A stretch of 61,773 bases of DNA from Verrucomicrobiota bacterium. GTDB taxonomy: Bacteria > Verrucomicrobiota > Verrucomicrobiia > Verrucomicrobiales > DEV007. Made by a program: the position numbers and the translations under genes. Numbering within the stretch: position 1 is the first letter of the stretch; each line of letters opens with the position of its first letter. Below, one piece after another: positions 25,248-55,018 of the stretch. The stretch lies in the NCBI GenBank assembly GCA_020630975.1, contig JAHDID010000029.1:1-61773 (forward strand), in the 5' to 3' direction. A model generated the notes under the pieces. That model saw only the letters and a program-made list of their open reading frames with translations, searched no databases and had not been told where the DNA came from.

Positions 25248-25466
25248 ATGACAGGATACACGACAGAAGATGATCGCTTGGCTACAGTTCGAGCGATGCG
25301 TCGGCTAAGGGAGGAGATTGAAGAGAATCCCGAAGTGGCACGCGAATTTCTGGAGTTAATGAATAAGTGCCGCCCCGAGCCAGACCCCCTGACTCCGAGA
25401 CAGAGGTACGAGCGCATGATGGAGCGGGTGAGGGTGCGCAACGCCGAGTTGTACGGTGAAGAATGA
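25248..25466 (+). CDS. Small charged helical protein, possible antitoxin
   Basis: A 72-residue, strongly charged, helical protein (MTGYTTEDDRLATVRAMRR, then EEIEENPEVAREFLELMNKC). I chose the ATG at 25248 rather than the TTG at 25224, because TTG would lie between the proposed -35 and -10 boxes. Its stop overlaps the start of the next gene by 4 bases (ATGA), so the two are translationally coupled. Size, charge and position before an enzyme-like gene suggest an antitoxin or immunity role, but I recognise no antitoxin family. Confidence 0.6.
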   Translation: MTGYTTEDDRLATVRAMRRLREEIEENPEVAREFLELMNKCRPEPDPLTPRQRYERMMERVRVRNAELYGEE

Positions 25467-26056
25467 AACAGAAAGTAGCCACGAATCCCGGCTACATCCT
25501 CGGCTACCATGGCTGCGATCGAGCTTTCGCTGATCGAGTGTTAGTTGGAGATGCCACCATCACCCCTAGCCGCAATGTCTATGATTGGTTGGGACATGGT
25601 ATTTATTTCTGGGAAGACGACCCTACTCGAGCTATGGAGTGGGCTATTGAAAAATCCAAGCACACGGATGCGTCTCTTTTTGAGCCCTATGTTTTGGGTG
25701 CCGTCATCGACTTAGGAGCCTGTTTGAGCTTATGGAGGCGATCCGACTTTCAGTTAATCAGGGATGGTTACAACACCTTACGATCTGTTTTTCAGGCCAG
25801 CGGTGAAAAACTACCAACCAATAGTAGCGGCAAGGATAGACTCCGTCGCGAATTGGACTGTGCTGTGATTCAGTCTGTTCACGCCACGCGCGAACGGGAT
25901 GGCTTACCTGCTTTTGATACGGTACGAGGCATGTTTCAAGAGGGAGCCGAACCATATCCGACCGCAGGATTTCGAGAGAGAAATCATATTCAAATCTGTG
26001 TGCGTGATCCTCGGTGCATAAAAGGCTATTTCCTACCTCTGACCGAAAGTAAGTAA
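25463..26056 (+). CDS. Putative ADP-ribosyltransferase-fold protein, possible toxin
   Basis: A 197-residue protein. GYHGCDR (residues 14-20), DWLGHGIYFWEDDPTRAMEWA (41-61) and RERNHIQICV (171-180) are arranged like the three blocks of PARP-type ADP-ribosyltransferases: His16, Tyr48 in the G-x-GIYF motif, and Gln177 at the position of the third catalytic residue. The ordering and the GIYF motif are seen directly; the fold assignment and NAD+ use are inference. It overlaps the upstream small gene by 4 bases, as toxin genes often overlap their antitoxin. An alternative is a host-signalling or phage-defence ART. Confidence 0.55.
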   Translation: MKQKVATNPGYILGYHGCDRAFADRVLVGDATITPSRNVYDWLGHGIYFWEDDPTRAMEWAIEKSKHTDASLFEPYVLGAVIDLGACLSLWRRSDFQLIRDGYNTLRSVFQASGEKLPTNSSGKDRLRRELDCAVIQSVHATRERDGLPAFDTVRGMFQEGAEPYPTAGFRERNHIQICVRDPRCIKGYFLPLTESK

Positions 26057-49788: not shown

Positions 49789-51936
49789 CTATGCACCAGG
49801 TCGGTTGGCTTCGATAAACGCTTTCGGATCGTGATAGTGCGCGAAGGTTTTAGGGAACAAATCGCGCCGCATACCGATCTTTAGATTCTTTCGGATTTCA
49901 AAGTGTAGGTGCGCCGTGTACATATCCTCAGGCCCTCTACCGATCGCACCGATCTGCTGCCCACGGCTCACCACATCTCCTTTATTCACCTCGAATTTTT
50001 GGAGATGAGCATAGCAGGCATCGATGATCTTCGTATCTCCTGCTTCATCCACATAGCTATGCCGAGTGATTACCACATTGCCCCAGCCTCGCTTATAGTC
50101 CTCTGCCAGCACGACTACCCCATCCCCGATGGCGTACACAGGATCACCTAGATCCGTATTTCCACCACCGATGCCATTCCAGTCGTCACCTAGGTGACCA
50201 CCCTCACTGAACTCTCGATACACAAAATAGCCCTCAGCATCGCCCTGCCCCATACCGACTGGATAGTCAAAGCCATCCGCTATCGGGACAGTCACCTGCT
50301 TCGGCGCCGTCGCCTCCGCATCACCTTTTCCCGCCTGCTGCTGACCTTTGAGAAAAAGCACTATACCCTCAGCTATTCCCTTGGCCAATTTGCCTCGCCA
50401 CTCTGGGTCGTTCACTTTCACAGCATCGGCATTATTGCTCAGATAGCCGCATTCGATGAGTGCCACTGGTACTTCCACGCCTTCAAATACTTTGAATCTC
50501 GCACTACCCTCTTTTCGGATTCTCGCATTGACCGATGCTGCAGCTTCCTTGATCACACTAGCTCCCAATCTATAGGAATCGAAGTCATCTCGATCGACGG
50601 GGCAATACACCTCCATCCCACGGGATTTTCGACTTTGGGACGAGTTGAAATGTATACTCACATAAGCCTGACAAGACTTCTGATTGGACACATTTGACCG
50701 GTCTTCTAATGGCACAAAGTAATCACCATCTCGAGTGAGCACAGCTGTCACACCTTTTTGTCGAAGTGCCTCCTGCACCTGCTTGGCGACATCCAAATTA
50801 TAATCTTTCTCTACCCCAAATGGATTTCTCGCCCCAGGATCGTGCCCGCCATGTCCAGGATCGAGCACCACCACACCATCCACAGCCACTGTCGCCCCTG
50901 AATCTTCACTCACCTCTGCCGGGTCATTTTGAGCCGTCAGAATACCTCCTACAGAAGCCGAAACAAAAATCAGAACCAGCAAGTATTTCCAAACAAAAGG
51001 CATTTGTCGCCGGTTCGCGATAGATAATACCCGACGGCGCAGAGCACTCTGACTATGGCTAAAGCCAACAAATCCCAAAGCCAATCCGCCGACAGGCTGA
51101 GCATCTAGCTTGAGTAACGTTTTACCATAGAGAGACCGACGCTCGGGAGATTCTTCACATATCACACTAGCATCACAGGCCATCTCGCGGTCCGCTCTTA
51201 TCCGAAAAAATGCCCACCAGTACAAAGGATTGAACCAATGCAAAGCGAGTAGCAAACAAAGCACGGCGTTTACCGACAAATCATGCCGCCGCAGGTGCAT
51301 CAACTCATGACGTATGACAAACTCCTGCTCATCCACACTCAAAGTCTGAGCAAACCCCTCACTGAGCAAAATCACCGGTCTAAATAACCCACAGACTGCT
51401 GGGCTCTGTACCCGACTGGAACACAAAACCCCAGGCACACGCCGGAGCCGCATACCCATAGCCAATCGCTGCACCCTATCGATCACCGCGCCATCCACCT
51501 CGATAGCCGTCGCGCGAATCCTCCTAACCGAAACAGCAAAAGAGAGCCCAATGACACCTAGAACTAGCACCACACCGACTCCCCATACCCAAAACGCCAG
51601 CTGAAGCCACGACCCATCGGAGACTGATGATTCCTGCCCCAGCCCTCCATCCGGTATAGCAGGCAGAGGCCTATCCATAGCTGAACCCAATGCCGCATCT
51701 GCCACGCCCACCCGATCCACAGGATAGAACGAGATATCCATAGTCGATATCGAATCCACAGGCAAAACCGGCAGCTTTGGTACCAGTAAAACGACCAATA
51801 CCGCAGCCCAGATCCCATAGTTCCAACTTGCTGATATCCTGCCCCGCAATAGCCACTGGACCGCCAGCACCAATAGTATCAATACAGATGCGCTAACGGT
51901 AGAATTGAGCACATGCTCGAATAGTGAGTTTATCAT
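49789..51936 (-). CDS. BlaR1-like M56 protease fused to amidase_3 and M23 peptidoglycan hydrolase domains
   Basis: A 715-residue membrane protein. Transmembrane helices lie at about 12-31, 41-58, 112-137 and 316-334. Between the last two is an M56 zinc-protease domain with HELMH (210-214) and Glu251 in EMACD, as in BlaR1/MecR1. After the last helix comes an N-acetylmuramoyl-L-alanine amidase domain with all four family residues: His362 (DPGHGGHDPGA), Glu376, His429 (SIHFNS) and Glu495 (ALIECGYLSN). An M23 LytM-type endopeptidase domain follows, with His581, Asp585, His644 and His678 (HLHFE). The usual beta-lactam-binding domain is absent. Its start lies 2 bases after the BlaI-like gene's stop. 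Confidence 0.93.
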   Translation of the reverse strand: MINSLFEHVLNSTVSASVLILLVLAVQWLLRGRISASWNYGIWAAVLVVLLVPKLPVLPVDSISTMDISFYPVDRVGVADAALGSAMDRPLPAIPDGGLGQESSVSDGSWLQLAFWVWGVGVVLVLGVIGLSFAVSVRRIRATAIEVDGAVIDRVQRLAMGMRLRRVPGVLCSSRVQSPAVCGLFRPVILLSEGFAQTLSVDEQEFVIRHELMHLRRHDLSVNAVLCLLLALHWFNPLYWWAFFRIRADREMACDASVICEESPERRSLYGKTLLKLDAQPVGGLALGFVGFSHSQSALRRRVLSIANRRQMPFVWKYLLVLIFVSASVGGILTAQNDPAEVSEDSGATVAVDGVVVLDPGHGGHDPGARNPFGVEKDYNLDVAKQVQEALRQKGVTAVLTRDGDYFVPLEDRSNVSNQKSCQAYVSIHFNSSQSRKSRGMEVYCPVDRDDFDSYRLGASVIKEAAASVNARIRKEGSARFKVFEGVEVPVALIECGYLSNNADAVKVNDPEWRGKLAKGIAEGIVLFLKGQQQAGKGDAEATAPKQVTVPIADGFDYPVGMGQGDAEGYFVYREFSEGGHLGDDWNGIGGGNTDLGDPVYAIGDGVVVLAEDYKRGWGNVVITRHSYVDEAGDTKIIDACYAHLQKFEVNKGDVVSRGQQIGAIGRGPEDMYTAHLHFEIRKNLKIGMRRDLFPKTFAHYHDPKAFIEANRPGA

Positions 51937-51938
51937 CT

Positions 51939-52325
51939 TTATTCCCCTTTCCTTTCGACCGACTCATCGAGTATTTTCTTTAGCTCCTCCACCTCTGCCG
52001 CCGTCAGATTCGACTGACTGGCAAAGTGGGCCAGCAAAGGTTTCGCCGCGCCGCCAAATACCCTACCGAGAAACGACTCCCCCTCGGCCTGCACCGACAC
52101 ATCGCGTGAGATCGCTGGCTCATAGGTGCGCACACCAGAGGTATTCTTATCTGTCGAAAGCGCCTCTTTGTCCACCAGCCTCGATAGCAGTGTACGTACC
52201 GTATTGTCTGCCCAGTCACGCGTCGGTCGCAGCGCCTTGATCACTTCTCCAGCTGTCTTCGGTGCCGCCTCCCAGAGCACCTCCATCACAGCCCATTCCG
52301 ATTCTGAAATATCAGTTTTCCTCAT
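51939..52325 (-). CDS. BlaI/MecI-family transcriptional repressor
   Basis: A 128-residue winged-helix protein when started at ATG 52323-52325 (MRKTDISESEWAVMEVLWE), the normal BlaI start; a longer form adds 13 unlike residues. WADNTVRTLLSRLVDKEAL is the recognition-helix region. The C-terminal half (SNLTAAEVEELKKIL) is the dimerisation part. In bla and mec systems such repressors bind TACA...TGTA operators and are removed after proteolysis triggered by the M56 sensor. The gene and the M56 fusion form a two-gene operon. Confidence 0.92.
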   Translation of the reverse strand: MRKTDISESEWAVMEVLWEAAPKTAGEVIKALRPTRDWADNTVRTLLSRLVDKEALSTDKNTSGVRTYEPAISRDVSVQAEGESFLGRVFGGAAKPLLAHFASQSNLTAAEVEELKKILDESVERKGE

Positions 52326-52337
52326 CACGAGATCATT

Positions 52338-52389
52338 ACTACAGTTGTAGTGACACACAGTCAACTACATTTGTAGTAATACAGCTGTA
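52338..52389 (-). promoter_or_regulatory. Triple BlaI-type operator overlapping the promoter
   Basis: Three palindromes lie just upstream of the blaI-like ATG: ACTACA-GT-TGTAGT (52338-52351), ACTACA-TT-TGTAGT (52364-52377) and TACA-GC-TGTA (52380-52389). They match the BlaI/MecI half-site TACA/TGTA. A -35-like TTGACT (minus strand, 52364-52359) lies between the first two sites and overlaps the second by one base. Repressor binding would therefore block transcription of its own operon. Confidence 0.8.
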
Positions 52390-52408
52390 ATGACTAGCTA
52401 TCCAGCTC

Positions 52409-54439: not shown

Positions 54440-55018
54440 CTATTTGCGCACCCCTGGGACACGGCCATAGCCGATCAGATTCTGGTGATCACCAGTGCGT
54501 AGCTCGTGGATATCGACACCGCCGCCATTGAGCCCTCGCAAGCGCTTACTCCGAGCACCAAACATGTGCAACTTGCCATCGGGTGCCTCCCCCAGATAGA
54601 TCATCACGTGCGAGACCTTGTGCCCCGAGTCATAAGTGCCGCCCCAAAAGATCAGATCGCCCTGCTCCAGCTTGCTCGCCTGAATCTCGCGGCCTCTACG
54701 CAGCCGGCTGTTCTTTTTCACCCACTCGTATTGGGCGAAACTAGTGCGCGGCACATTCTGCACACCAGACTTGGACAGCAGGTACTGGATACTGCCCGAG
54801 CAATCCATGCCGCCATCCTCTGGCTTGCTCCCGCCAAAGACATACGGCAGCCTCAGGCGCGAGATTTTGCGCGCATTCTGCTGAATTTTACCAACCGATG
54901 CCGTGCTCGGGCTACTACTCGTCGCCGACCGATCCGGCACCGCCTCGCGACGCGACGACGCACACGATACTACGACCACAGCCAGAGCCAACACTGCTAT
55001 CCATCCCCATCTTTTCAT
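54440..55018 (-). CDS. NlpC/P60-family lipoprotein, putative peptidoglycan peptidase
   Basis: A 192-residue protein with a lipoprotein-like N-terminus (MKRWGWIAVLALAVVVVSCASS; Cys19 in VSCAS). Residues 70-190 form an NlpC/P60 domain: DCSGSIQYLL supplies the catalytic Cys, SHVMIYLG the His, and a later polar residue completes the triad. Such enzymes cut D-Glu-diaminopimelate bonds in wall peptides. It lies near the M56-amidase-M23 operon, so several wall enzymes are encoded within 5 kb. Confidence 0.87.
   Translation of the reverse strand: MKRWGWIAVLALAVVVVSCASSRREAVPDRSATSSSPSTASVGKIQQNARKISRLRLPYVFGGSKPEDGGMDCSGSIQYLLSKSGVQNVPRTSFAQYEWVKKNSRLRRGREIQASKLEQGDLIFWGGTYDSGHKVSHVMIYLGEAPDGKLHMFGARSKRLRGLNGGGVDIHELRTGDHQNLIGYGRVPGVRK

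Follow-up and report, generated by a model that had tools for sequence, protein, structure and literature searches.

A gene pair in a 61,773-nucleotide stretch of DNA from a Verrucomicrobiota bacterium (contig JAHDID010000029.1; the whole stretch is referred to as the window) encodes a BlaI/MecI-type repressor and a fusion protein that joins a BlaR1-type M56 transmembrane zinc protease to two cell-wall hydrolase domains, Amidase_3 and M23. On balance, we lean towards the interpretation that this protein is a BlaR1-like antirepressor in which wall hydrolases replace the penicillin sensor, so that the state of the wall would control both the cleavage of BlaI and how much of the protein itself is made. 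The two genes are encoded on the minus strand, and only 2 bp separate the blaI stop codon from the ATG of the fusion gene. The window represents the first 61.8 kb of a 70,410-base contig in a 7.1-Mb draft genome of 158 contigs, and the gene pair is located well inside it.

The fusion protein contains the site residues of all three enzyme families. The initial annotation, made from the sequence alone, had described M56, amidase_3 and M23 domains in one protein, listed their site residues and placed a BlaI repressor gene 2 bases upstream. A Pfam domain search confirms the three domains and the repressor (Table 1), and every listed residue is found at its position. The M56 site consists of HELMH at residues 210-214 and E251 as the third-ligand Glu, the Amidase_3 site is complete with H362, E376, H429 and E495, and the M23 motifs HxxxD, H and HxH are all present as H581, D585, H644, H676 and H678; the presumed roles of these residues are those of the families. 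No penicillin-binding (class D/transpeptidase) domain was detected by Pfam at an E-value of 0.001, with M56, Amidase_3 and M23 being the only matches. The NCBIfam model blaR1_generic, whose cut-off is 400 bits, scores 148 and covers residues 12-328 only.

The predicted topology and folds place the hydrolases where BlaR1 carries its sensor. Hydropathy analysis reveals four hydrophobic segments at residues 12-30, 42-60, 119-137 and 315-333. The loop at residues 61-109 is acidic (8 acidic, 2 basic residues) and the loop at 138-310, which contains the M56 active site, is basic (25 basic, 16 acidic). A BlaR1-like arrangement is thus predicted, with four transmembrane (TM) segments, the protease inside before TM4 and the C-terminal part outside. 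The amidase starts approximately 20 residues past TM4, the site of the penicillin sensor in BlaR1. When the M56 part alone is compared with solved structures, BlaR1 is matched (8exp, E 6.5e-6) with the HExxH motif and third-ligand Glu aligned. A model of the whole protein has a mean predicted local distance difference test (pLDDT) value of 76.9, with most blocks of the M56 core and amidase above 90 and M23 low. In this model, residues 5-297 superimpose on Staphylococcus aureus BlaR1 8ext (VIA Z 21.2, root-mean-square deviation (rmsd) 3.4, 245 aligned) and residues 351-533 on the amidase 4rn7 (Z 29.2, rmsd 1.7, 182 aligned). The amidase domain also resembles LytH in sequence (E 1.9e-22) and model (Z 26.3, rmsd 1.5, 172 aligned). 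In a second model, covering residues 335-715, the M23 fold is visible and matches LytM 2b13 (TMt 0.74), and residues 544-709 share 61% identity with an M23 protein encoded separately in this genome. The M56 match, the predicted topology, the adjacent BlaI gene with its operator-like sites and the hydrolases at the penicillin-sensor position bear out the BlaR1-type scaffold suggested in the initial annotation. Its further suggestion, that the external part would bind or cut peptidoglycan with wall fragments or damaged wall as the signal, is a hypothesis.

The repressor gene is preceded by palindromes that resemble BlaI operators. Residues 3-121 of the repressor align with the BlaI structure 1sd4, and MecI also aligns over its length. 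The known cut in BlaI lies between Asn101 and Phe102, according to a BlaR1 study (PMC9834060). The repressor reads His-Phe at this position, within the segment PLLAHF, the P1' Phe being kept. Three palindromes, the third imperfect, are found in the 83-bp gap that separates dinB from blaI (Table 1). All three copies of the core TACANNTGTA in the window fall in this gap, compared to 0.32 expected occurrences, and none of 100 shuffles reaches three. Operators of BlaI, MecI and CopY follow a TACA-N2-TGTA-type consensus, and the three operator-like palindromes represent candidate BlaI sites. The same palindrome precedes blaI at a paralogous locus on contig 128 (C128) of this genome and in genomes G044 and G050 of another family. 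A different palindrome, AAAACYAATATTTTRGTTTT, is found before blaI on contig 3 of genome G005 (G005 C3) and on C103 of the source genome, and a third type, CACTGAAAATTCAGTG, on G005 C23; as both differ from the palindromes described here, cross-talk with these three systems is unlikely. The repressor has an alternative TTG start at 52364, which would add 13 amino acids relative to the ATG.

The positions of operator-like sites in the genome suggest that the operon may mainly control itself. Perfect copies of ACTACANNTGTAGT occur three times in the genome, only at the operon itself (contig C4) and at C128. Six further sites contain one mismatch, one at C128 and the rest on C26, C40, C43, C51 and C158. 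For WYTACANNTGTARW, 15 sites are present versus 6 in a reversed control. Five of these precede blaI-M56 pairs (two on C4, two on C10, one on C128), two fall within an extended, repetitive frame of C51, one each is on C137 and C158, and six are copies of one repeated 14-mer, TCTACACATGTAAT (C31, C33, twice on C49, C131 and C143; loci L052-L055, L059 and L061). This 14-mer may be part of a dispersed repeat. A wider regulon was considered and rejected: among the WYTACANNTGTARW and ACTACANNTGTAGT sites read in context, those on C4, C10, C128 and C51, no target beyond blaI-M56 pairs was established. Since perfect ACTACANNTGTAGT copies are confined to this operon and a single paralogous blaI-M56 pair, what the circuit chiefly produces is probably the sensor-hydrolase, and the circuit seems to be mainly self-controlling, perhaps also acting on C128.

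The three-domain fusion is neither an accident nor unique. The initial annotation had pointed to a survey of other genomes for the M56-amidase_3-M23 order, and the architecture does recur, in two more genomes. Among 386 genomes of the order, searched with a profile of the fusions and with the two best candidates scored per genome, at least three encode it: the source genome, G005 (C23, 725 amino acids) and G151 (C236, 738 amino acids), all within one family. This sample under-counts M56-amidase proteins without M23. In a phylum sample (387 genomes, three candidates scored per genome, the G151 M56-amidase part as query), both domains were spanned, among the matches listed, only by C4 and C103 of the source genome. 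In a GTDB scan with a four-fusion alignment, 3 of the best 80 of 543 loci carry M56 and amidase in one frame, namely L213 (Verrucomicrobiia HKST-UBA30), L191 (Flammeovirgaceae) and L172 (Chitinophagales). Among 295 genomes in the class to which the L191 genome belongs, at least 4, that of L191 included, show a match covering almost the full length of the protein. The first contig scan, with the fusion protein alone as query, gave no match, and none of 206 matching records in a plasmid collection covers 80% of it.

BlaI and the protease motif accompany every amidase fusion examined. We examined 13 M56-Amidase_3 proteins, eight from Verrucomicrobiota and five from Bacteroidota, including those of G005 C3, G055 C74, C103 and L268 (from the same genome as L213). 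Pfam places M56 and Amidase_3 above cut-off in all except that of C103. HExxH is present in 13/13 and blaI lies directly upstream on the same strand in 13/13, a count made with a blaI profile for which 7 of the 13 had served as seeds. Pfam Penicillinase_R passes its cut-off in 11/11 scanned repressors, those of G005 C3 and C103 being outside that scan. The four amidase residues are kept in ten of the 13, the present fusion included, and the last Glu is changed to Asp in G005 C23 and to Asn in L191. If C103 is set aside, blaI and HExxH are found in 12/12 and the amidase site in 10/12. All amidase and M23 catalytic residues are present in G151. Ten of the 13 proteins do not possess M23. In L172 and L241 the amidase is followed by a TonB-receptor plug stretch. 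In G055, L213 and L268, M56 is separated from the amidase by roughly 300 or more residues.

The same scaffold and the same tail are also found in other combinations. The C103 protein (L036:1544-3682, minus strand) consists of M56, with blaI adjacent to its gene, and an amidase-like part without the zinc ligands. Pfam finds only M56 in this protein, and its C-terminal part gives no match in a BLASTP comparison with the G151 amidase. An amidase match is obtained at 16 bits with a small profile and at 13.2 bits with a larger one, compared to a best score of 3.8 in 200 shuffles, and the BLAST match of the whole G151 protein extends from M56 into the outer part, located behind TM4. Judged from these matches, the C103 outer part is a probable degenerate amidase. 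Two STN-like stretches can be seen by eye after it. G005 C64 (L029:3398-4582, plus strand) encodes Amidase_3-M23 without M56 and with both active sites changed; the gene upstream is one we take to be HipA-like. On contig 3 of G053 (L269:5717-8056, minus strand), a Ser/Thr protein kinase ends in the same M23 subfamily with the motif residues present, and hydrophobic segments are visible by eye between kinase and M23. Other outer parts on the M56 scaffold include a C-terminal Pfam Secretin match in L064 (just below cut-off), L065, L066, L068, L069 and L047, some of them also with weak STN matches. The M56 protein of C128 (L031) is 508 amino acids long and its outer part has no Pfam match; two similar proteins of about 400 amino acids or more are encoded downstream on the same strand.

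Phylogenetic analysis indicates that the two-hydrolase tail is carried by two distinct scaffolds of the BlaR type. A tree was built from 36 M56 domains. The fusion protein groups there with M56 proteins whose outer parts differ, in a branch of 16 rows (split 100/100), its nearest M56 being that of C128 (95/72). The other 20 rows hold G005 C23, G151, G005 C3, G055 and C103. A single origin of the triple fusion was rejected for M56, where one clade gives a p-value of 6e-5 in the approximately unbiased (AU) test and a log-likelihood lower by 133. One clade of triples is not rejected for the amidase (p-AU 0.07) or for M23 (p-AU 0.19), and adding the M56-less G005 C64 changes these values to 0.047 and 0.37, respectively. 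The AU test was run after the M56 tree had been seen, and long branches weaken all three trees. The tail is assigned to two scaffolds because the M56 parts of the triples occupy two well-separated branches. Tail transfer, scaffold exchange or repeated assembly could each underlie this distribution. Recurrence on different signalling scaffolds is expected of a sensing cassette and fits one, though it is no proof.

Based on these observations, a circuit can be proposed. Without a signal, BlaI dimers bound to the three palindromes would hold the operon down, as the sites and the family suggest. The fusion protein is predicted to cross the membrane four times, with M56 facing the cytoplasm and the amidase and M23 endopeptidase facing the wall. 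Altered wall substrate or product, for example stem peptides or less cross-linked or damaged wall, would be met by the external domains, and the resulting change would be relayed through TM4 to M56, which would cut BlaI and switch the operon on. In BlaR1, an outer loop occupies the active site of the sensor, and signalling is proposed to start when beta-lactam displaces this loop (PMC9834060). By analogy, the acidic loop at residues 61-109 could take this role here. The outcome would be a wall hydrolase that is tethered to the membrane, regulates its own synthesis and, in addition, reports on the state of the wall. We infer the signal, the catalysis by the hydrolases and the cleavage of BlaI from sequence. 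A more specific version, which we regard as tentative, is a self-sensing hydrolase in which engagement or turnover of substrate directly gates the transmembrane protease that destroys the repressor of its own operon, peptidoglycan being measured by the attempt to cut it. If this version is true, the presence of the tail on two BlaR scaffolds and of the same M23 on a Ser/Thr kinase would point to a portable wall-sensing cassette.

Several points weigh against a wall-responsive antirepressor. The identity of the signal is guessed and the support is computational throughout. Hydrolases that cut constitutively would be poor sensors unless gated, and the complete amidase sites in ten of 13 fusions may reflect selection for cutting instead of sensing. 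At the presumed cleavage position of the repressor, P1 is His and not Asn. No sigma-70-like promoter for the gene pair passed the promoter scan; by eye, a TTGACT can be made out in the stretch that separates palindromes 2 and 1, and a TTGACC is similarly placed at C128 (a weak observation). Allowing up to one mismatch, ACTACANNTGTAGT has 9 sites in the genome versus 39 in the reversed control and hence shows no excess; only the position of the operator-like sites, not their genome-wide number, is informative. In addition, the operator-site scan found no second target gene, leaving the benefit of the response unexplained.

Alternative roles for the hydrolases can be weighed with the same data. 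They could be effector and signal source at once, cutting the wall to yield stem peptides that are imported and bind BlaI as coactivator, with M56 mainly trimming peptides or BlaI. We consider this unlikely, even though a wall dipeptide binds BlaI/MecI and loosens its hold on DNA and a gamma-D-Glu-diamino-acid coactivator has been proposed in Bacillus licheniformis (PMC3305447). Later work demonstrated that BlaR1 itself cleaves BlaI, with no further components needed (PMC9834060). The complete amidase and M23 sites of the present protein and G151, and the four residues kept in most fused amidases, agree with a signal source, yet three of the 13 miss at least one site residue while HExxH is never missing. 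An antirepressor sensing the wall and a hydrolase supplying the signal differ in the behaviour expected of a hydrolase-dead mutant.

Less probable still is that the hydrolase folds serve as a non-catalytic anchor or ligand-binding sensor that only binds peptidoglycan. Degenerate LytM domains bind peptidoglycan without cutting it, and the altered last Glu in G005 C23 and L191, as well as the probable amidase remnant without zinc ligands behind M56 of C103, would suit such a role. Complete sites are nevertheless found in the present protein and in 9 of the 12 others, and a naive comparison shows no excess of altered sites, with 3/13 in the fusions against 25/118 in other amidases (Fisher p 1.0). 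This control set is not dependable, since the last Glu is misaligned in those amidases that carry insertions. We give slightly less credence again to the reverse direction, in which the membrane part would control the amidase and BlaI would set the dose only. The staphylococcal amidase LytH is controlled by a membrane partner, a solved LytH-ActH pair exists and the amidase resembles LytH in sequence and model; the invariable HExxH and adjacent BlaI fit signalling to BlaI instead. An assembly artefact or functionless chance fusion, conceivable in a draft of 158 contigs, is exceedingly improbable given the open frames and complete sites of the locus and was rejected in view of two further triple fusions and 13 M56-amidase proteins, all with blaI.

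Little is known about how the state of the wall is sensed outside a few model bacteria. If the fusion proteins signal as proposed, the BlaR1 scaffold would represent a transmembrane reporter of general use whose outer domains can be exchanged, penicillin detection being one of its uses, and wall-hydrolase domains would serve both as tools and as inputs. With sites complete in some and changed in others, the 13 natural variants would make it possible to compare cutting and binding directly as carriers of the signal.

Table 1. Coordinates of the repressor-fusion gene pair, its domains and the operator-like palindromes in the window.
Feature	Position	Strand	Evidence
M56 - Amidase_3 - M23 fusion protein, 715 aa	49789..51936	-	Open reading frame (ATG start), Pfam, predicted folds
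BlaI/MecI-type repressor, 128 aa	51939..52325	-	Penicillinase_R E 4.6e-31; BlaI structure 1sd4 E 1.9e-17
M56 (BlaR1-type) transmembrane zinc-protease domain, residues 9-304	51025..51912	-	Pfam E 4.6e-55
Amidase_3 domain, residues 356-525	50362..50871	-	Pfam E 1.2e-45
M23 (LytM-type) domain, residues 544-712	49801..50307	-	Pfam E 2e-18 (residues 595-684)
Operator-like palindrome 1 (ACTACA-GT-TGTAGT)	52338..52351		Sequence scan
Operator-like palindrome 2 (ACTACA-TT-TGTAGT)	52364..52377		Sequence scan
Operator-like palindrome 3, imperfect (AATACA-GC-TGTAAT)	52378..52391		Sequence scan; core TACAGCTGTA at 52380-52389

Upstream of the pair and on the same strand, the window contains a gene for what we take to be an NlpC/P60 wall-hydrolase lipoprotein (54440-55018, minus strand), judged by eye from the sequence. 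Between it and blaI are a presumed esterase-like gene and dinB, both named from reading the sequence. No terminator passed the terminator scan at the locus. Elsewhere, a 197 amino acid frame on the plus strand (25463-26056) presumably resembles ADP-ribosyltransferase-like proteins.

The initial annotation had called the arrangement a circuit not known from the literature. Among the matches listed in the open literature (titles and beginnings of abstracts, with subscription papers mostly outside this scope), no BlaR1-like protein or circuit with a wall-hydrolase sensor was found. The claim nevertheless has to be narrowed. M56-Amidase_3 with an adjacent blaI recurs in two phyla, and the combination of M23 with M56 or amidase is already mentioned in a review of M23, which states that less than 1% of M23 matches carry another catalytic domain, amidase and M56 among them, and that M56 has not been shown to take part in cutting the wall (PMC9662197). 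A class D beta-lactamase study (PMC9045261) describes proteins in which a class D site is combined with an M56 domain, as is usual for BlaR.

The gene pair shares with the BlaI-BlaR1 and MecI-MecR1 systems of Staphylococcus and Bacillus licheniformis a blaI gene adjoining the M56 gene, palindromes before blaI, a four-TM M56 protease with HExxH and Glu, and an external C-terminal domain right after TM4. In contrast, the external part is Amidase_3 and M23 instead of a penicillin-binding domain, and the operon contains no beta-lactamase or PBP2a gene, a statement about the operon only, as the genome was not searched for beta-lactamase. Since the defining penicillin-binding sensor is missing, the fusion protein is not a BlaR1, though its other testable features are built like one. 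With CwlV/CwlD/LytH-type N-acetylmuramoyl-L-alanine amidases it shares the fold and four site residues, whereas its amidase is fused behind M56 and followed by M23. The separate M23 (LytM) protein of the genus (275-300 amino acids) is 45-61% identical to its M23 domain with ligand residues kept, but here M23 comes last in a membrane protein of the signalling type. The kinase-M23 protein of G053 likewise ends in this type of M23, with a kinase in place of the M56 protease. The M56-Amidase_3 proteins of Verrucomicrobiota and Bacteroidota share with it the scaffold, outer amidase and upstream blaI. Judged by sequence, the locus is of the BlaI-BlaR1 kind with a new outer part, and its combination of M56-Amidase_3 with blaI recurs in two phyla.

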